The notes beneath the pieces are model-generated. The model did not search any database. It saw only the letters and a list, made by a program, of their open reading frames with translations, and was not told the DNA's origin. 64,000 nucleotides of DNA from Fibrobacter sp. UWB11 (GTDB taxonomy: Bacteria; Fibrobacterota; Fibrobacteria; Fibrobacterales; Fibrobacteraceae), in NCBI RefSeq assembly GCF_900143015.1, contig NZ_FSRT01000001.1:496001-560000 (forward strand), read 5' to 3'. Positions within the stretch are counted from its first letter, which is position 1, and the number at the start of each line of letters is the position of its first letter. Positions 18,901 to 54,642 of the stretch are shown one piece after another. Made by a program: the position numbers and the translations under genes.

Positions 18901-20496
18901 ATGAATAAGTGGATAAAAGTAATGCCAGTGGCAGTTGCTGCCTTTGGGTTATGGGCGTGTGGCGATGAAGCTATGTCTTCTGCCGCGCAATGTACAACAA
19001 AAGAATGCTTGGAACAGGTCGGTCAGTCCGCTGGAATTATTTCTGGTGGAGAATCGAGTTCTAGTTCGTACGCCGAAAACAGCGTAGGATCCAGTTCAGA
19101 TAAAGTGCCTGATTCTTCTGCAGATGTGCAATCTCCGACGAGTAGCTCTGATGCCGCGGTTTCTAGTGGTGCATCTAGTAGCAGTGTCGCGGGGCCTGTG
19201 CTATCATCGAGCAGTGAGGCTTTGCCAGAAAGCAGCAGCAATGCCGTCTCTAGTTCTAGCCGTGGGCATCAACATTCTAGTTCGTCTGCAACAAAGCCGG
19301 AAGTCTCTAGTTCCAGTGAAACGACGCCTCCGTCTCCGGTGAATGAATTTGTCGAAGACCATCGCAGTGAATGCCAGATTGGCAATATCCCTTCAAGCGT
19401 GAACAACGCAAAACTGCCGGACCCGTTTATGGGTCTTGATGGCAAGCGTATTTCTAGCAAGGCTGATTGGAAATGCCGTCGCGAAGAAATCGGTGCCATG
19501 TACGAAAAGCTCATGTTCGGTACAAAGCCGCGCAATCCAGAAAAGGTCGAAGGCAGCTACTCCGGTGGAAAGCTCACCATCAAGGTGACTGACAAGGGCA
19601 AATCCGGCAGTTTCTCCGTGAAAATCAGCAACGCCGGTACGAAGGACAAGCCGAAGCCTGCGATGATCGGTTTTGGCGGTGGCATGATGGGCGGTTGCGG
19701 AAGCCTCGGCAACGCAACGAACGGTCTTGACATCGCTCAGATTACGTTTAACCCGGATGACGTCGCTCCAGAAAGCGGTGGCGGTATGTTCTTCCAGCTT
19801 TATAACCAGGGACAGGGCACCATCATTGCATGGGCTTGGGGCGTAAGCCGCATTATCGACGCTCTCGAAAAGACTCCTGAAGCGGGTATCGATGTGAAGC
19901 ACCTCGCTATGACGGGTTGCTCTCGCTGGGGTAAGGGTACTCTTGCCGTGGGTGCATTCGATGAACGTATTGCCCTCACGATTCCGCAGGAATCCGGTTC
20001 CGGTGGCGCATCGCTTTGGCGTGTGGGCGCTCAGGTGAACAAGCAGAAGGGTAAGCAGTTCGTTCAGGGCTTGAGCAGTGCCGGTACCGAAGGCAAGTGG
20101 ATGATTTCTAGTTTCAAGAACTACGATGGCAAGGAAAATACGCTCCCGTTTGACCAGCACATGTTGGTGGCTATGGTGGCTCCGCGTGCGCTCCTCATTC
20201 TCGACAATGCAGGTCAGGAATGGTTGGGCGAAGTTCCGTCGAACTATTGCGGACAAGCTTCTAAGGAAGTTTATGACGCTCTCGGTGCAACGGAAAATTA
20301 CACCTACAGCCAGGAAGGCGGTCATGGTCACTGCCAGCTTCCGAACGGGCAGTTTGACGAAGTCAAGGACTTTATGAACAAGTTCTTGCTCGGCAAGGAT
20401 GCCAAGACGGGTAAGATTGACTACACCAAGAATACTCAAACCATCAACTTCAAAAAGTCTGAATGGATTGATTGGGAAACGCCTAGCTTGAAGTAG
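18901..20496 (+). CDS. CE15 glucuronoyl esterase, lipoprotein-type export signal, Ser-rich linker
   Basis: This 531-residue secreted enzyme is predicted to cleave ester bonds between lignin alcohols and 4-O-methyl-glucuronic acid on xylan. It has an N-terminal signal ending in a lipobox-like LWACG, a Ser-rich low-complexity linker (about residues 45-150), and a CE15 alpha/beta-hydrolase domain. The nucleophile motif GCSRWGKG places Ser341, the acidic residue is in PQESGSGG (Glu364), and the His is in GGHGHCQ (His475 or His477). GGGGTTGG precedes the ATG. The linker type is shared with the pectate lyase and GH5 enzymes of this window. Heptad repeats follow directly after the stop. Confidence 0.92.
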   Translation: MNKWIKVMPVAVAAFGLWACGDEAMSSAAQCTTKECLEQVGQSAGIISGGESSSSSYAENSVGSSSDKVPDSSADVQSPTSSSDAAVSSGASSSSVAGPVLSSSSEALPESSSNAVSSSSRGHQHSSSSATKPEVSSSSETTPPSPVNEFVEDHRSECQIGNIPSSVNNAKLPDPFMGLDGKRISSKADWKCRREEIGAMYEKLMFGTKPRNPEKVEGSYSGGKLTIKVTDKGKSGSFSVKISNAGTKDKPKPAMIGFGGGMMGGCGSLGNATNGLDIAQITFNPDDVAPESGGGMFFQLYNQGQGTIIAWAWGVSRIIDALEKTPEAGIDVKHLAMTGCSRWGKGTLAVGAFDERIALTIPQESGSGGASLWRVGAQVNKQKGKQFVQGLSSAGTEGKWMISSFKNYDGKENTLPFDQHMLVAMVAPRALLILDNAGQEWLGEVPSNYCGQASKEVYDALGATENYTYSQEGGHGHCQLPNGQFDEVKDFMNKFLLGKDAKTGKIDYTKNTQTINFKKSEWIDWETPSLK

Positions 20497-20500
20497 TTTT

Positions 20501-20591
20501 TTAGTCGTTAGTTGTTAGTCATTGGTTATTAGTTATTGGTTGTTTTTTCTAATGACTATTGACCATTGACTAATGACCGTTGACTGATTAT
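20501..20591. repeat. Facing heptad-repeat arms (TTRGTYR)n
   Basis: Six 7-nt units of TTRGTYR (20501-20542) are followed after a short T-rich spacer by six units in the opposite sense (20549-20591, such as CTAATGA, CTATTGA, CCATTGA). The arms can pair imperfectly into a long hairpin. It starts 5 nt after the stop codon of the esterase gene. Confidence 0.75.
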
Positions 20592-20644: not shown

Positions 20645-21262
20645 TTACAGCGAATCCTGGAACTTGTGGAATTTGTCCAAAAGTTCTGCGTAGGTCTTTG
20701 TGGCTTCGAGCTGCGGGAACTGTGCCACGATGGAATCCGGAGCGCAGAAGAAACAGCCCTTGTCGGCCTGCTTGAGCATGCCCGTGTCGTTGAAGGAATC
20801 GCCCGAGGCAAACACTTTGAAGTTGAGTTCCTGCAAATGCTTTACGACCTTCGTCTTCTGGTCGCTCATGCGCAAGTGGTAACCCTTGATCATGTCGTTT
20901 TCGACTACGAGATTGTGGCAGAAAATCGTCGGGAATCCGAGATTCTTCATGATGGGATAGGCGAATTCCTGGAACGTATCCGAGAGGATGATTACCTGGG
21001 CTTCGTCACGGAGCGTGTCCATAAAGTCGCGGGCGCCGTCGAGGAGTCCGAGATTTGCAATCACGTTCTGGATGTCAGAGAGCTTGATGTTCTCGCGTTC
21101 GAGAATCTTGATGCGGCCCTTCATGAGCACATCGTAGTCGGGGATGTCGCGAGTGGTGAGGCGGAGGTCCTTGATGCCCGTCTTTTCGGCGACGGCAATC
21201 CAGATTTCTGGCGCAAGAACGCCTTCCAGGTCAAGAGTGACAACACATTGCTTAGTAAACAT
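20645..21262 (-). CDS. thrH: ThrH-type phosphoserine phosphatase / homoserine phosphotransferase
   Basis: This 205-residue haloacid-dehalogenase-family enzyme closely follows the ThrH pattern known from Pseudomonas: LDLEGVLAPEIWIAVAEKTG at the start (Asp11 nucleophile, Glu13), TTRDIPDYDVLM, VIILSDTFQEF (motif II) and ASGDSFNDTGML (motif IV). ThrH dephosphorylates phosphoserine and can pass the phosphate to homoserine, linking serine and threonine synthesis. The length fits. The gene stands alone, bounded by a terminator downstream and heptad repeats upstream of its ATG; the repeat fills the place where a promoter would be expected. Confidence 0.93.
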   Translation of the reverse strand: MFTKQCVVTLDLEGVLAPEIWIAVAEKTGIKDLRLTTRDIPDYDVLMKGRIKILERENIKLSDIQNVIANLGLLDGARDFMDTLRDEAQVIILSDTFQEFAYPIMKNLGFPTIFCHNLVVENDMIKGYHLRMSDQKTKVVKHLQELNFKVFASGDSFNDTGMLKQADKGCFFCAPDSIVAQFPQLEATKTYAELLDKFHKFQDSL

Positions 21263-21267
21263 AGTGA

Positions 21268-21302
21268 TTAGTTATTAGTTGATAGTTACTAGTTAATAGT
21301 TT
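21268..21302. repeat. Heptad repeat (TTRGTYR)n upstream of thrH
   Basis: Five 7-nt units (TTAGTTA, TTAGTTG, ATAGTTA, CTAGTTA, ATAGTTT) lie directly before the thrH start codon on the minus strand. There is no facing arm here, unlike at 20501-20591. Confidence 0.65.
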
Positions 21303-21330
21303 TATTGTTTGTCAGAGAACTAGTTGCTGT

Positions 21331-25109: not shown

Positions 25110-28100
25110 TTACCCTTTCTTAATCACTTCTACGGTGAGCTTGTTGAACGCAATCTTGCCGCCTTCGCGGAGTTCTAGTGCTGCCCTGAACGTTGTGTCA
25201 TTTTTCTTGAACGGTTCAAGGATGGGTGTGGATTTGTTCTTTAAAAGCGTTTCGACTTCTTCGTCTTTGAATTCACGCTGGAAGAACGTCTTGGGAATCC
25301 CGTAATTGCAGGCGGGGTTCATGCACACGTATGCCGCAAGCGTTTGCACTTCGCCGTTTGGCGTTTGCGTGGTCGTGCCGCTACGGAATCGCAGCTGGTC
25401 GCCGCAACAAGGGCAGGGGAGGTCTCTATGGACAAATTCAAAATTCGTGCGACCGTCTTCGCCGAGCTTTAAGTAGGCATCGAATTCAGTCCCTTTCTTG
25501 CTCTTGAATCCGGTTAAAAGTTCGGTCTTGCCGCCGGTGAGGAGAGCCTTGATGTCTGCTACGCGGAGCTTTTTGCCCGCAACGGATTTGAACAAGGTGA
25601 AGTTACAAGCGGGGCAGAAAATGGCGTTCTTGTTTTCTTCGAGTTTCTTTTTGCAGAGCGGACAGTTGAACTTAGTTTCGGTGCCGTGGAAATGTCCATC
25701 GTTTTCGAAAGCGAATGTCGTCTTGAAATCCTTGTCCCAGACGACTTTGGCGTTGAAAGTCGTGCCTTTCTTGGTCAAGAATCCGCTGATGATTTCGGTT
25801 GTACCATTGCTGAAAAGTTCTGCAATTTCCGTATCGCTCATGACGTGCCCGGCAATCGTTTTGTAGAAAACGAAGTCGCAAGTCGGGGCTGTGTCCGGCG
25901 TAAGCGTCGGGTCGCCATTTTCGTTATTCGATGTGGTGATGTCGCTCCCTTCGCAGATGAGGCGGTTCCCGGAATCCAAAAGCGTCTTGCCGCACTTGGG
26001 ACACTTGTAATTGGTCGGCGTTTTGGCGCGGGCGTCATCGGAAAATTCAAAGCCGATGTTGCCGTCATCGCCTAATGTGAGCGTGGCGCTGAATGTTGTT
26101 CCTTTTTTGCTCTTGAATCCGCTGAGCAAATCGGACTTGCCTGTTTTGAGGAGTGTCGCCATTTCGGCGTGGCTCAGTGTGCGGCCTGCAATGGTGTGGC
26201 CCGCCTTGAAACCGCATTCTTCGTTTTTGCAGACATAGCCCCACGGCGCAATTTCGAGTGGGCTAGAACATTTCGGGCAGGGAATCGCATCAGTGACGGT
26301 TTCTCGTTCAAACTGGCTGCCGTATTTTTGACGCAGATGTTCGAAGAGTTCCTTGACGTAATTCACGATGCCGTCGCGGAATTCTATTGGCGTGAGTTTG
26401 CCTTTTTCGACTTGCGAAAGCTTGAATTCCCATTCGCCAGTCATTTCGGGCGATTTGACTTTCTCGTCCATAAGCGCGATGACTTCGCGTCCGCGCTGGG
26501 TGCTGACAAGGTAATTCTTTTGCGCTTCGATGAATCCGCGCTTTTTGAGCGTCTCGATGATGCCTGCTTGCGTGGCTGGCGTTCCGAGACCGCGTTCTTT
26601 CATGGCTTCGGCAAGTTCTTCGTTTTCGATTTGCTTGCCAGCCGTTTTCATTGCGGCGAGGAGTGTTGCTTCGGTGAAGTACTTGGGCTTGCTCTTCTTT
26701 TTCTTTTGCAGTTCCAAGCTGTCAAATGGCGCATGGTCCCCAAGATTCCATTCCGGGAATGTCTCGACGATATTCGTGATATCATCGCCATCGCCTTTGC
26801 CTTCGGCATCTGCTCCCTTCGCTTCACTTGTCATGCCGGACTCTGTTCCGGCATCGCCTTTTTTCTTTTTCGACGGTTTCTTCTTTTCTTCCTTGACCAG
26901 TGCGCGGAATCCCAAATCTTCATTCCGCTTGAGCTTTAAACGGAACAGTTCTGGCGAGACTCTCGCCTCAGCTGTCATTCCGGCCTCAGTGCCGGAATCG
27001 CCTTTCTCGTTGCCAGCCTCTAACAGCACCTCCATTTCACTCCAGACATACGGCTTGAGCCATGCCTGCACAAAGCGTTCCTTTGCGAGCTTGTAGATGT
27101 TCTCTTCCATTTCAGGGAGATTTTGCGGCTCTTCCCCCGTAGGGATGATGGCAAAGTGGTCCGTGACTTTACTAGAGTTGATGAAGACAAAGTTTTCGTT
27201 GCCGCTACGCATGACGGATTTTTCTTGCGGTGTGGCTAGTCTTTGTGCAAGAGCGTAAGCTTCTTGCTGCATCGTGTCTGGCAGATATTGCGAGTCTGTA
27301 CGCGGGTAGGTGAGCAACTTCTTTTCGTACAAGTTTTGTGCGCAATCCAGAACTTGTTGGGCGCTGTATTTAAAACGCTTGTTGCCCTCTTTTTGCAGTT
27401 CCGTCAAGTCGAACGGTTTTTGCGGGAACTGCTTTTTCTGCTGGATGTCGATCTTTGCAATCGTCGCTTCTTCCGGTGGTGAGCATTTGTCTATAACTGC
27501 TTGCGCCGGCTCTTCTTTCTCGAAAATCGCAACTTTGAGATTGCTTTGCTTGTCCGATGGGGCTGATTTGTCATTGCGAGGGGGCGTGTCCCCCGAAGCA
27601 ATCTCTTGCATTGTCATTCCGGCCTCCGAGCCGGAATCGCCTTTTACTTCTTTCTTTTCATATCTTACATACTGCGCCTGGAACCCTTTCCACGTTCCTA
27701 CAACGCTGTAATAAAACAGTTCCTTGAACTGCTCGACAATCGCATCGCGTTCCACGACTAGGTTGAGCGTCGGTGTCTGCACGCGCCCCACAGAAATCAT
27801 CTTTCCGCGCCCGGCAGTGAGCGTGTATGCACGAGTTGCATTCAGCCCGACCATCCAGTCGGCACGCTGGCGGAGCCTTGCCGCATAGCTCAAGTTCAAA
27901 CGCTCTGTAGCGTCTTCCAGATTCTTCCAAGCCTTGTCCAAATCTTTCGCCACATAGCTGTTCACCCACAAGCGCTTGATCTGCTTTTTGCGAAAGTCCG
28001 GCGTGTAGTCGAGAATCAAGTCGAAAATCAAATTACCTTCACGGCCCGCGTCCGCGCCGTTCACAAGCACGTCTGCCTTCGACATCATGTCGCGCACCAC

Positions 28101-44343: not shown

Positions 44344-45660
44344 ATGCTTTCTTCACGTTTGCCTAAAGATCTTTCTCCGTCTCCATTTTTTGCTGAATTG
44401 GAACGCGCAAAAGCCGATGTGCTTGCTGCGTGCGCGAATTCAGATGCACTTCCGTTTATCGACATGACGGTGAGCTCGCCTGTGAAGGCTGGCTTGCCGG
44501 TGGATTTAGATGATGCGGTTGATGAAGGTCGTAAAGCTTTTGGCAACTGGAGTCCAGATGCGGCGGGTTGGAAATCGGCACGCGAGGCGGTGGTGGAGTA
44601 TTACCGCGAACGTGGTGGCAATTTTACTGCTGGGCAGATAATCCTAACCGCAAGCACGAGCGAAGCTTATTCCGTTTTGTTCAAGACGTTCTGCGATCCG
44701 GGCGATGTGATTTTGACGCCGATGCCAGGCTATCCGCTTTTGGATACGCTTGCGCAGCTCGAGCATTTGGAATGTGCTCCGTACTTTTTGAAACTTGTAC
44801 GGCAACCGGTTAAGGCGAAAAAAAACGTCATTCTGAGCGAAGTGAAGAATCCAGTAAAATCCACCTTCCGTTTTGTCCTGGATTCCGACAGCCTCTTGGC
44901 GGCGCCGGAACATGCAAAAATCTTGTTGCTTGTCTCGCCACATAATCCGACTGGTCATTGCATCTCTCGTGAAGAATGGAACGCTGCGGTCAGTTTCTGC
45001 GAAGAGAACAACATGATTCTCGTCGTCGACGAAGTATTCGGCGATTATGCTTTCTCGGATAAAGTCTCGCGCACTTGGCAATATGTTTTCGCGCCTTGTC
45101 ATCCTGAGCGAAACGAAGTGGAGTCGAAGGATCTCTGGGATGCGGGCGGGGGAGACTTTATTAACCTTCCCGAAAACGGTCCGAAGTGCCCGATTTTCTG
45201 GCTGAATGGTCTCAGCAAAGCTGTGGGCTCGCCGCAGCTAAAGCTCGGCTGGATGGCTTTCTACGCCCCGCGCGAAAATTTCGAAGAAATTCGCGCGGCT
45301 CTCGAGTTCGTCGAAGACGCATACTTGAGCGTTTCTGCACCTGCGCAGGCTCTCGGCATTTCGCTTTTACCCAAGGCTTCTGCTTATGAATCGCGTGTCC
45401 GCGAGCGACTCCTAACTAATTGGCAGATGCTTCGCGAAGCGTTCCCGTCCAAGTATTGTCCCGAAGTTCTCGGTGGCTGGTACGCTGTTGTGCGTCTTGG
45501 CGAAGATGACGAAGAACTCACGCTTCGCTTGCTTCGAGAAAAGCATGTGCTTGTACAGCCGGGCTTCTTCTTTGATTTTGACGAAGATGGCTGGGTGGTC
45601 ATTAGCCTGCTGCAAGACCCTGCGGTTTTCAAAGAAGCGATTTCTCGCATTAAACTGTAA
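44344..45660 (+). CDS. PLP-dependent class I/II aminotransferase with two repeat-derived inserts
   Basis: This 438-residue fold-type I aminotransferase has HNPTGH near residue 202, an Asp in VVDEVFGDYAF and the PLP Lys in GLSKAVG, with KLGW following. The substrate cannot be assigned. Two stretches do not fit the family: NVILSEVKNPVKS (about residues 161-173) and CHPERNEVESKDL (about 252-264). Both are translations of family A palindromic repeats, read in two different frames. No ribosome binding site is visible before the ATG; a TAAATT box lies 9 nt upstream. Confidence 0.87.
   Translation: MLSSRLPKDLSPSPFFAELERAKADVLAACANSDALPFIDMTVSSPVKAGLPVDLDDAVDEGRKAFGNWSPDAAGWKSAREAVVEYYRERGGNFTAGQIILTASTSEAYSVLFKTFCDPGDVILTPMPGYPLLDTLAQLEHLECAPYFLKLVRQPVKAKKNVILSEVKNPVKSTFRFVLDSDSLLAAPEHAKILLLVSPHNPTGHCISREEWNAAVSFCEENNMILVVDEVFGDYAFSDKVSRTWQYVFAPCHPERNEVESKDLWDAGGGDFINLPENGPKCPIFWLNGLSKAVGSPQLKLGWMAFYAPRENFEEIRAALEFVEDAYLSVSAPAQALGISLLPKASAYESRVRERLLTNWQMLREAFPSKYCPEVLGGWYAVVRLGEDDEELTLRLLREKHVLVQPGFFFDFDEDGWVVISLLQDPAVFKEAISRIKL
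44827..44855. repeat. Palindromic repeat, family A, inside the aminotransferase gene
   Basis: GTCATTCTGAGCGAAG followed by TGAAGAATCCAGT matches the family. It is in frame and encodes VILSEVKNPV. Confidence 0.85.
45098..45134. repeat. Palindromic repeat, family A, inside the aminotransferase gene (second copy)
   Basis: GTCATCCTGAGCGAAACGAA followed by GTGGAGTCGAAGGATCT is in frame but shifted by one base relative to the first copy, so it encodes CHPERNEVESKDL instead of VILSE. Confidence 0.87.
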
Positions 45661-45664
45661 ATAA

Positions 45665-45745
45665 AAAGTCCGCGAATTACATCGCGAACTTGATAAAATT
45701 GTTTGAGATTGCTTCGAGTGCTGCGCACTCTCGCAATGACGATTC
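45665..45745. terminator. Bidirectional terminator and family C palindromic repeat
   Basis: AAGTCCGCGA and TCGCGAACTT form a terminator stem at 45667-45692 between the converging aminotransferase and GH9 genes. A family C repeat (GATTGCTTCGAG...CTCGCAATGAC, 45708-45740) follows. Confidence 0.75.
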
Positions 45746-47760: not shown

Positions 47761-49851
47761 ATGAAACAAATTGTTTCTATTTTCGCATGTGCTGGCTTTT
47801 TTGCTGTGGCCAACGCACAGGTTTCTCTTCAGATAGCCTCTGGTGCTTTAGAATCGGCCTATGCCGAATGGGCATCTGACGGTTCCGATAGCTACAACGT
47901 CTATTATTCGGGCGCTGGAGCTAGCGATGTCAAGGTAGATGCTCCGCTCATCCGCAAATACGGTTCCAAGTTCCGTGTCGACGTGGTCGGCCTCAAGGCG
48001 GGTAGTTACACGCTCAAGGTGGCGTCTGTAAAAGGCGGCAAAGAGACTGCTTCGACCACATCCAAATCGTTAGAAGTCAAGGCGCATGACCGTGCTGGAT
48101 TCGCGTTTAGCAACGGACATGTTCCGGGCGCCTATAACGCAGACGGTACGCTCAAATCGGGAGCTGTCGTCCTCTACATTTCGGAATCGACGAAGAACAC
48201 GGTCAAGCTGGATGTCGTCACGAGCAACAAGGGCGCCGTTACGGAAAGTGTGGGCCTCCAAAATATCTTAACTTCGTTCAAGAAGGGCTATGATAAGCGC
48301 CCGCTGGTGATTCGTCTCCTGGGAAATGTGACGGACCCCGAAGTGACCGACAAGGGCGACATCACCATCGATATGGGCAAAAAAGAGGGCCTTTCGATGA
48401 CTGTTGAAGGCATCGGTAATGATGCGACTGCAAATGGCTGGGGTTTCCGCGTCAAAGGAACCCAGGATTTGGAAATCCGAAACATCGGCATTATGAATGT
48501 TGATTCCGACGAAGGCGACAACATCACGCTCCAGCAGGATAACCAGTATATCTGGGTCCACAACAATGACTTTTTCTACGGCCATGCGGGTAGCGACAAG
48601 GACCAGGTCAAGGGCGATGGCGCCTTGGATTGCAAGCTATCGACTTATGTGACCTTTAGCTACAACCATTTCTGGGATAATGGCAAGTCCAATTTGCTCG
48701 GCCTTAAGGAAGGTGCCAATGGGGGCTATTACATCACGTATCACCATAACTGGTACGATCACTCCGATAGCCGTCATCCGCGTGTGCGTTACTACAGCGC
48801 TCATGTGTACAACAACTATTACGATGGCAATGCCAAGTACGGCGCAGGCTCTACGCTGGGCTCTTCCGTGTTCATGGAAGCAAACTACTTCCGCAATTGC
48901 AAATATCCGATGATGACCTCGTTGCAGGGAACCGACGTCTATGCGAGCGGCACCAAGCGCGATCCGACCAATAACGGTACGTTCAGCAAGGAAGCGGGCG
49001 GTACAATCAAGGCTTACAATAACCACATGGAAGGCTCTTACACGTTTATTCCGTATGGCGCAAGCAAATACATTTTGAAGGGTAAAGAAACTGCAATTGG
49101 CGATATTGATTCTAAGGTCGATTTTGACGCTTATGTTGTAAGCAGTCGCGAAGCTCAGGTGCCGTCTAGCGTTAAGTCTTACGATGGCGCAAATACGTAT
49201 AACAACTTCGATACGGACAAGTCTATCATGTACAGCTACACGGCTGATTCTCCGGAACAGGCTGTTGCGAATGTGCGTGCCTACGCTGGCCGTTTGCAGG
49301 GTGGCGATTTCAAGTGGACCTTTGACAATTCTGTTGACGATGCCTCTTCGGACGTGAACCAAGCGCTCAAAGATGCGCTCATGGCATACAAGGGTAGCAA
49401 TGGGGAAGTGATGGAATATTCTTCCTCTTCTAGCGTCATACAGAGTTCATCCTCTTCTAACGTCATCCTGAGCTCATCGAGCGAAGGATCCAGTAACAGT
49501 TCTTCTTCCAACGTCATTCTGAGTTCCTCGAGCGAAGAATCCAGTGACAGTTCCAGCAACGAAAAGGTCGAAAGTTCGAGTTCAGAAGGGACGATGGGCT
49601 TTGCGAAAGTTATGATGACGAAGCCTCGCGAAATTTATTATGATGCCCGTTCTGCAAGCCTTGTTATAGGTGCCGCAGACATCACCCGTTTGGATATCAT
49701 CGGTGTTGATGGCCGCCGAGTCAATATTACAGACATCAAGAGCGTAGGCGATGCCCGTGTGCTTGACATGAGCTCGCTCCGTGCAGGGGTCTACATCGTC
49801 CGATTCTTGACGCCTCTTGGATTGCAGACCATGAAGTTCGTGAAGAACTAG
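47761..49851 (+). CDS. PL1 pectate lyase with Ser-rich linker and C-terminal sorting-type domain
   Basis: This 696-residue secreted polysaccharide lyase cleaves polygalacturonate by beta-elimination. It has a signal peptide (to about residue 19, VANAQ), a fibronectin-III-like module (about 20-110), a right-handed beta-helix PL1 domain (about 115-520) with the signature WYDHSDSRHPRVR, a Ser-rich linker (about 550-610), and a final beta-rich sorting-type module ending LQTMKFVKN. The linker contains two copies of NVILSSSSE, which correspond to family A palindromic repeats in the DNA. The start at 47761 begins the signal peptide directly. Confidence 0.92.
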   Translation: MKQIVSIFACAGFFAVANAQVSLQIASGALESAYAEWASDGSDSYNVYYSGAGASDVKVDAPLIRKYGSKFRVDVVGLKAGSYTLKVASVKGGKETASTTSKSLEVKAHDRAGFAFSNGHVPGAYNADGTLKSGAVVLYISESTKNTVKLDVVTSNKGAVTESVGLQNILTSFKKGYDKRPLVIRLLGNVTDPEVTDKGDITIDMGKKEGLSMTVEGIGNDATANGWGFRVKGTQDLEIRNIGIMNVDSDEGDNITLQQDNQYIWVHNNDFFYGHAGSDKDQVKGDGALDCKLSTYVTFSYNHFWDNGKSNLLGLKEGANGGYYITYHHNWYDHSDSRHPRVRYYSAHVYNNYYDGNAKYGAGSTLGSSVFMEANYFRNCKYPMMTSLQGTDVYASGTKRDPTNNGTFSKEAGGTIKAYNNHMEGSYTFIPYGASKYILKGKETAIGDIDSKVDFDAYVVSSREAQVPSSVKSYDGANTYNNFDTDKSIMYSYTADSPEQAVANVRAYAGRLQGGDFKWTFDNSVDDASSDVNQALKDALMAYKGSNGEVMEYSSSSSVIQSSSSSNVILSSSSEGSSNSSSSNVILSSSSEESSDSSSNEKVESSSSEGTMGFAKVMMTKPREIYYDARSASLVIGAADITRLDIIGVDGRRVNITDIKSVGDARVLDMSSLRAGVYIVRFLTPLGLQTMKFVKN
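49434..49545. repeat. Family A palindromic repeats forming the pectate lyase linker
   Basis: Two clear copies lie at 49462-49494 (GTCATCCTGAGC, then AGCGAAGGATCCAGT) and 49513-49545 (GTCATTCTGAGT, then AGCGAAGAATCCAGT), spaced by 51 nt. A diverged third begins at 49434 (GTCATACAGAG). All are in the same frame. Confidence 0.82.
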
Positions 49852-49949
49852 TTATTGGTCATTGGTTGTTAGTCATTAGTCTTTGGTTGAAGGATCTTTT
49901 GGGGGCTTTAAAAAAACTATTGACCATTGACTGATGACTACTGACTTTA
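49852..49949. repeat. Facing heptad-repeat arms (TTRGTYR)n
   Basis: Five 7-nt units (TTGGTCA, TTGGTTG, TTAGTCA, TTAGTCT, TTGGTTG) start 1 nt after the pectate lyase stop codon. Opposite-sense units (CTATTGA, CCATTGA, CTGATGA, CTACTGA) follow at 49917-49949. The arms can form a long imperfect hairpin, which may also act as a transcript end. Confidence 0.72.
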
Positions 49950-54122: not shown

Positions 54123-54157
54123 TTATGGGATGGTGGGAAAGGGCGCCAATGCAAATA

Positions 54158-54188
54158 AAAAAGACTCGATTTTCATCGAGTCTTTTTC
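54158..54188 (-). terminator. Terminator of first tRNA-Leu gene
   Basis: AAAGACTCGAT and ATCGAGTCTTT pair with a short loop (GAAA), followed on the minus strand by TTTTTT. It begins right after the tRNA 3' end. An almost identical stem follows the second copy at 54446-54476. Confidence 0.88.
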
Positions 54189-54272
54189 TGCGGTCGGACA
54201 GACTTGAACTGTCATGAGATTGCTCCCACTAGCACCTCAAGCTAGCGTGTCTACCAATTCCACCACGACCGC
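54189..54272 (-). tRNA. tRNA-Leu(GAG)
   Basis: The minus strand reads GCGGTCGTGGTGGAATTGG..., with acceptor stem GCGGTCG/CGACCGC, a D-arm with AATTGGTAGACACG, and anticodon stem CTAGC/GCTAG with loop TTGAGGT (anticodon GAG). A long variable arm (GTGGGAGCAATCTCAT) and a T-arm with GTTCAAGTC follow, then discriminator A. CCA is not encoded. It is a class II tRNA reading CUU/CUC codons. Confidence 0.93.
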
Positions 54273-54362
54273 GTGGTCCTTAGCGGAACGAACACAAAGA
54301 TAGTATAATTTTTTGATTTTGGAAACTCTTGTTGAAAAATAATTGAATTTTTTTTTGACAAT

Positions 54363-54430: not shown

Positions 54431-54445
54431 TTCGTGCAAAAATGA

Positions 54446-54476
54446 AAAAAGACTCGATTTACATCGAGTCTTTTTC
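54446..54476 (-). terminator. Terminator of second tRNA-Leu gene
   Basis: AAAGACTCGAT and ATCGAGTCTTT form the stem with loop GTAA on the minus strand, followed by TTTTTT. It is nearly identical to the terminator at 54158-54188. Confidence 0.88.
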
Positions 54477-54560
54477 TGCGGTCGGACAGACTTGAACTGT
54501 CATGAGATTGCTCCCACTAGCACCTCAAGCTAGCGTGTCTACCAATTCCACCACGACCGC
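54477..54560 (-). tRNA. tRNA-Leu(GAG), second copy
   Basis: The tRNA sequence is identical to the copy at 54189-54272 over all 84 nt, and the flanks (terminator stem downstream, CGTGGTCCTTAGCGGAACG upstream) are also shared. The repeat unit is 288 bp, so this is a tandem duplication of the whole gene with its terminator. Confidence 0.93.
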
Positions 54561-54642
54561 GTGGTCCTTAGCGGAACGGCACAAATTTAGTATAAAACTT
54601 TTAGCTTGTAAAGGGGGTTGCGCGCTTTTTTATCAAAAATTT

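Follow-up and report, generated by a model that had tools for sequence, protein, structure and literature searches.

GTAG REPs, which occur with RAYT transposases, are short dispersed palindromes that are sometimes found within genes. The best-known palindromic repeats carried in frame are those of Rickettsia and Wolbachia. The rickettsial RPE-4, RPE-6, and RPE-7 are small palindromic repeats located within genes, the reading frame of which they leave unbroken; their characteristic motif, ATGAC, is the reverse complement of GTCAT, and RPE-4 and RPE-6 are CGTC-tagged (PMC3767692; PMC3733652). Every ortholog had the insertion at the same place, and the study left undecided whether such places are insertion hotspots or reflect one old insertion that has diverged (PMC3767692). 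RPE-1 (Ogata et al. 2000), likewise from Rickettsia, measures approximately 100–150 bp and is described as encoding a conserved peptide; it is tolerated in conserved enzymes, of which one that was tested, Gmk, remained active (PMC2229807, PMC10969869). The CGTC-tagged REP super-family is characterized by an unpaired terminal CGTC or TGTC tag, a stem of 8-9 bp starting with AT, a loop of 4-5 nt, and a short unpaired tail with the consensus CCA (Di Nocera et al. 2013, PMC3733652). These REPs have no dedicated transposase and include intragenic copies in repair genes; their mode of dispersal is left unexplained, and the paper makes no mention of Fibrobacter (PMC3733652).

The stretch of DNA analysed here (the window; 64,000 nucleotides of Fibrobacter sp. 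UWB11) contains a repeat of comparable kind twice within a single aminotransferase gene. It is highly probable that this gene is an example of small dispersed palindromic repeats being tolerated in frame in permissive loops, where they are turned over and partly exchanged by short-tract recombination. No published account of such repeats in Fibrobacter was found in a search outside of which most subscription papers lay, which is weak evidence of novelty.

The Aminotransferase and Its Two Repeats

The host gene (44344–45660, plus strand) is intact and encodes a class I/II aminotransferase of 438 amino acids, as seen from the list of open reading frames, a Pfam search (PF00155, E=4e-34), and a search of its own genome (3.76 Mb, 9 contigs, 100% complete), where it is the sole full-length match and, thus, present in single copy. 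Among solved structures, the nearest folds are those of alanine and tyrosine aminotransferases. The codons of Asp229 (45028–45030) and Lys292 (45217–45219), both on the plus strand, fall into invariant columns among the orthologues; as expected for fold-type I aminotransferases, Asp229 would contact N1 of PLP, and Lys292 would be the lysine in Schiff-base linkage with PLP. According to the orthologue alignment, the frame is unbroken and every active-site position is retained. Since the core shows a pN/pS of 0.116 in comparison with the nearest relative, the gene is considered to be under selection as an enzyme. The open frame, the invariant active-site residues, and this ratio suggest that the aminotransferase is still functional with both inserts; the enzyme would stay active and the inserts would be nearly neutral.

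Both repeats belong to family A and match the consensus core GTCATYCTGAGCGRARYGAAG with 0 mismatches. The first copy (44827–44856, plus strand), recognized by its sequence and by arm and tail statistics, starts as GTC ATT CTG AGC in frame 0 relative to the gene start at 44344 and is read VILSEVKNPV. Together with the preceding C at 44826, it displays a CGTC tag, followed by the left arm ATTCT (44830–44834), the right arm AGAAT (44846–44850), and a CCA tail at 44851–44853. The second copy (45097–45135, plus strand), recognized by sequence and arm statistics, is a long-loop form that begins TGT CAT CCT GAG; GTCAT starts there at codon position 2, and the repeat is translated in frame +1 as CHPERNEVESKDL. 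It has a TGTC tag, the arms ATCCT (45101–45105) and AGGAT (45128–45132), and the tail CTC. The loop between the ATyCT and AGrAT arms comprises 11 nt in the first copy and 22 nt in the second. Strong hairpins were not found in these two copies, which fold no better than shuffled sequences (z -1.06 and +0.59).

The preliminary description had claimed that one aminotransferase contains the same repeat twice in two different frames, that the conserved unit is the nucleotide sequence, the DNA being alike and the peptides unlike, and that both copies leave the enzyme frame open; all of this was borne out, and the locations given for the two repeats were confirmed. As the sense orientation of the element is free of TGA in just two of three frames, chance alone would place two insertions in different frames about half of the time.

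AlphaFold was applied to the aminotransferase of the window together with 36 relatives. The resulting mean pLDDT is 86.9, and residues 159-169 and 251-260, which coincide almost exactly with the repeat-encoded stretches, are the sole segments of at least three residues with a pLDDT below 50. By this measure, the inserted peptides are predicted to lie in flexible loops.

Anatomy and Abundance of the Repeat

The core GTCATYCTGAGCGRARYGAAG is present in 72 copies in the 3.76-Mb genome (up to 3 mismatches, both strands) versus 0 for the reversed pattern. Both aminotransferase segments are short (approximately 30-40 nt), as would befit a chance resemblance between two loop sequences, but the exact match of both to the consensus and the 72 versus 0 control lead to rejection of this explanation, the probability of which is negligible. 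Among 61 Fibrobacter genomes, 58 contain the repeat, with up to 93 copies per genome at 2 mismatches, versus 2 matches in all for a control pattern over the same genomes. Phylum-wide, 64 of 121 genomes match the repeat core; outside the genus the distribution is patchy and, among the places listed, the GTCATTGCGAG form prevails. In the 64-kb window, no Rfam family was found for the repeat.

Anatomy was derived from 70 of the 72 genomic copies. An exact inverted partner of the five bases following GTC is found downstream in 54 of them (shuffles: mean 3.7, maximum 11), the arm pairs being ATCCT/AGGAT (32), ATTGC/GCAAT (14), and ATTCT/AGAAT (7). The arm types covary, with the partner of a different type encountered in 3 of 145 tests. 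GTCAT is preceded by C or T in 68 of the 70 copies, and the tails of the 54 paired copies include CCA (21), CTA (14), and CTC (8). Copies of families A and B have a terminal stem of 5 bp and loops of 11-12 or of 22 or more nucleotides (11-30 nt); the length of the element is approximately 25-45 bp. One of the three sense frames has TGA within GTCATyCTGA and one antisense frame has TGA at ATGAC; therefore, four of the six frames of the element can be read through.

Further repeats were noticed in the window. A scan for paired arms detected TGTCA-tagged, near-perfect palindromes with stems of 7-8 bp and short loops at 26829, 26973, 27612, 52934, 61740, 61787, and 63030 (plus strand); these palindromes, for example, TGTCATTCCGGCCTCAGTGCCGGAATCGCC, approach canonical CGTC REPs. 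Family B elements (GTCATTGCGAG type) with an additional loop hairpin are located at 27565-27605 and, just downstream of the aminotransferase gene, at 45705-45745. Units resembling TTAGTCATTGGTTATTAG and their inverted counterparts form another dispersed repeat (20484-20585, 21258-21306, 49838-49946), which is apparently distinct from the GTCAT-tagged palindromes. Finally, a direct duplication of 134 nt, 99% identical, covers 54157-54290 and 54445-54578, each copy containing one minus-strand tRNA.

Variable Loops in Aminotransferase Orthologues

In a comparison of 61 distinct orthologues, length varies at three loops only, after residues 25, 155, and 250, and elsewhere by at most 4 residues. 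The loop near the N-terminus (residues 26-36; 44419–44451, plus strand), with 0-33 extra residues in orthologues, is without a repeat in the UWB11 window copy. The two hypervariable loops that contain the repeats are defined by the orthologues and by pLDDT. Site 1 (residues 153-175; 44800–44868, plus strand) accommodates 0-59 extra residues in 22 distinct lengths after residue 155. Site 2 (residues 249-265; 45088–45138, plus strand), located after the PLP-binding Asp motif and ahead of the PLP lysine, accommodates 0-146 extra residues in 31 distinct lengths after residue 250. The density of GTCAT/ATGAC is 9.35 per kb in the loops versus 1.76 per kb in the core.

Site 1 is empty, reading PYFLQLKREKSS, in three orthologues from largely complete genomes (L005, L007, L010); site 2 is likewise empty, reading VFGDYAFSDKVSRTWQYVGDNG, in L017. 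Both segments are absent from Fibrobacter-like orthologues that are more remote (L105-L108) as well as from the related families L025-L030. The preliminary description did not cover two further aspects: in other species, the same two sites are occupied by other repeat families, and the phenomenon extends throughout the genome. At filled sites, families A, B (GTCATTGCGAG), C (CCCCG...CGGGGATGAC), and E (GACGAGAGAACGCTCGCAGGCTCGCTACAGACGAGAG) are encountered; among the orthologues, site 1 contains A, B, C, or E or is empty. Family E is dispersed in 15 of 41 relatives, and one orthologue (L004) carries it at both sites in different frames, which is the same pattern produced from other DNA. Family C is tandemly arranged in both L019 and L020; L002 has an extra insertion within its site 2 repeat. 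On a core-protein tree of 60 rows, in which many branches are weak so that the count is rough, family content changes state at least 23 times per site. As a separate observation, site 2 of a Fibrobacter from horse gut (L020/L109) contains an insert of 146 residues, in which family C elements of the two orientations alternate and are all read through in one open frame.

The argument for insertion as an event is the comparison of empty with filled orthologues, and it is in line with the proposal of the preliminary description that a DNA element had been inserted. Sites with a recognized element are longer than those without, with median lengths of 22 versus 15 residues at site 1 (p=6e-4) and 22 versus 9 at site 2 (p=3e-6). 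Repeat-free orthologues that are equally long at both places, which would speak against the proposal, are mostly not found, but a minority of orthologues without a recognized element is still long there.

These data also bear on the view that the ancestor had one ancient long segment per site, and that the present variety arose by divergence and partial loss, with no repeated insertion. A relationship between the families would be conceivable from the GTCAT/ATGAC tag common to all elements, and most main-clade members have some additional residues at site 2. Against this, the segments are missing from the distant orthologues and related families mentioned above, and unrelated families are found in different species. 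In addition, inserts common to two species are too alike at silent sites for ancient, neutral sequence, with a pooled pS of 0.19 versus 0.53 for the core (from non-independent pairs that were picked for similarity and are thereby biased). An ancient segment is quite improbable, and purely vertical inheritance of neutral inserts was rejected, since similarity among the shared inserts exceeds that of the core.

Other Genes with In-Frame Repeats

At least 14 of the 70 genomic copies are strictly intragenic, as judged by the coding score on both flanks, and additional intragenic copies are probable. Host genes according to Pfam include cobA-hemD, ligA, coaBC, trpCF, yidC, secA, and uvrB, as well as those for an RlmL-like methyltransferase, a helicase, and a GT4 glycosyltransferase; in many of them, Pfam domains flank the insert on both sides. 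With reading frames of the VILS, CHPER, LRFAQDD, and SFAALRMT types, all four stop-free frames are in use. Hypervariable regions are found in orthologues of three of these enzymes, too, namely, a linker in coaBC (0-56), a loop in ligA (0-55, including the empty form GERATWI), and three loops in trpCF. Peptides such as VILSEAKNP, CHPERSE, and VIASEAK, when encountered in predicted proteins, represent repeat DNA that has been translated; this bears on how Fibrobacter enzymes are annotated and expressed and on the prediction of their structures.

Several individual cases were noted. The GT4 glycosyltransferase of the same genome (L047:873-2141 / L147:1167-2435) is a second example of what the preliminary description had noticed: it carries CHPEQNEV and VIANEVK as in-frame inserts, the repeat being read differently in each. 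The uvrB gene of the same genome (L044, L141) contains two elements: one separates the UvrB domain from the UVR domain, and the other, which is close to the predicted N-terminus, may be ahead of the true start. A ligA match in one draft genome (L197) contains an internal TGA, possibly because the assembly is in error or the gene is split.

Would the inserted peptides carry a selected function, for instance, in regulation of the enzyme or its partners? The inserts last in many species, and pN/pS, pooled over the shared inserts, amounts to 0.31 instead of 1, a value based on few changes in non-independent pairs and confounded by exchange. Yet one DNA is read in different frames, unrelated peptides occupy one site, close relatives have empty sites, predicted order is low, and like inserts are found in many unrelated enzymes, so that a function of this kind is very improbable. 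The converse assumption of the preliminary description, namely, selection only for staying in frame, holds insofar as the frame is open, but is overstated, because position and lack of stops count too. Insertions are limited to three loops in the aminotransferase and to linkers or loops in the other enzymes, the frames in use are all stop-free, and shared inserts are over-similar for simple vertical descent.

Probable Exchange and Proposed Dispersal of the Inserts

An identical 57-nt site 1 segment is shared by three orthologues (L077, L102, L110), neighbouring third positions of which agree to 38-85%. Identical runs of 60-132 nt extend across a site in pairs of species with core third positions approximately 50-65% alike. 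Such exact segments in diverged genes suggest that short-tract recombination between species probably moves inserts, next to new insertion. Long identical runs are also present elsewhere in the aminotransferase gene; therefore, short-tract exchange is regarded as general. Among orthologues, the frame of family A is fixed per site, frame 0 at site 1 and frame 1 at site 2, which would be expected if insertions had been shared or exchanged and less so if there had been numerous independent hits.

Taken further, the loops could be cassettes swapped by homologous recombination between species, with new insertion being rare and patchiness resulting mostly from exchange. The long runs that span a site despite the diverged cores would accord with such cassettes, but exchange neither creates elements nor places the same families in coaBC, ligA, and trpCF. 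As a full account it is a tentative possibility on the doubtful side; it complements, and does not replace, insertion of repeats into tolerant loops.

For insertion and tolerance, the following course is proposed. The element, which has a C/T-GTCAT tag, a 5-bp terminal inverted repeat with 11-12 or 22+ nt in its loop, and a CCA-like tail, is scattered in Fibrobacter genomes, mostly outside genes. A minority of copies would have become inserted into genes, in surface loops or linkers accepting additional residues, and these intragenic copies would persist only with the frame left open. The repeat-encoded peptide would be without conserved meaning, one DNA being read in any of four stop-free frames. 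In permissive loops, elements of several families would pile up, expand in tandem, and get lost, and would in part pass between species with short tracts of the flanking gene.

The repeats would be mobile and dispersed by a mechanism other than an obvious RAYT. Neither a target-site duplication nor a transposase was found with the repeats, and a profile search did not detect PF01797 (Y1 transposase; RAYT or IS200-type) in the UWB11 genome. Y1 enzymes occur in 20 of 61 members of the genus, without relation to repeat copy number (p=0.34), and in the three loci that were read in relatives, no paired GTCAT elements flank the Y1 genes. Mobilization by RAYTs was rejected on the grounds that Y1 is lacking here, that the Y1 enzymes of the relatives resemble IS200 TnpA and are without flanking paired elements in those three loci, and that their occurrence does not follow the repeat copy number. 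A more far-reaching scenario is a genus-wide standing set of permissive loops in housekeeping enzymes, into which unrelated families insert, where they expand and from which they cross species, with dispersal using no known transposase. This is rather unlikely as a whole; if true, new loop sequence would continually arise from this set.

Comparison with Known Repeat Systems

The Fibrobacter repeat resembles GTAG REPs as a short dispersed palindrome with some intragenic copies; it differs from them in having no GTAG tag and no Y1 transposase in the UWB11 genome. With CGTC REPs it shares the C/TGTC tag, the AT start of the stem, the CCA-like tail, the lack of a dedicated transposase, and intragenic copies, repair genes included, and near-canonical CGTC-like forms with stems of 7-8 bp are present in the window (e.g., at 26973 and 61740). 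In families A and B, however, a 5-bp terminal stem and a loop of 11-30 nt replace the 8-9 bp and 4-5 nt of the CGTC REPs. Tag, tail, and absence of a transposase agree with the super-family, while stem and loop sizes do not; the repeat is related to the four described families, CGTC-1 to -4, but is not a member, because its stem length is outside their definition.

Like RPE-1, the repeat is a protein-coding palindromic repeat tolerated by conserved enzymes, but its elements are shorter (approximately 25-45 bp) and their frames vary. The resemblance to RPE-4, RPE-6, and RPE-7 includes in-frame location in genes, the ATGAC/GTCAT motif, and different groups at the same orthologue site; these RPEs are solvent-exposed in models, to which the Fibrobacter inserts may be likened by their low pLDDT. 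Differences lie in the host, a free-living gut bacterium of the Fibrobacterota, in the shorter terminal stem of 5 bp, in a larger number of families, and in the presence of tandem arrays and of sites that are clearly empty. Because of the empty sites and the unrelated families, hotspots would be favoured over one old insertion in Fibrobacter, and dozens of species with empty, filled, or differently filled loops make the question of hotspot versus ancient insertion testable. With in-frame insertion, paired arms, and a predicted flexible region all found, the Fibrobacter repeat works in the manner of the RPEs.
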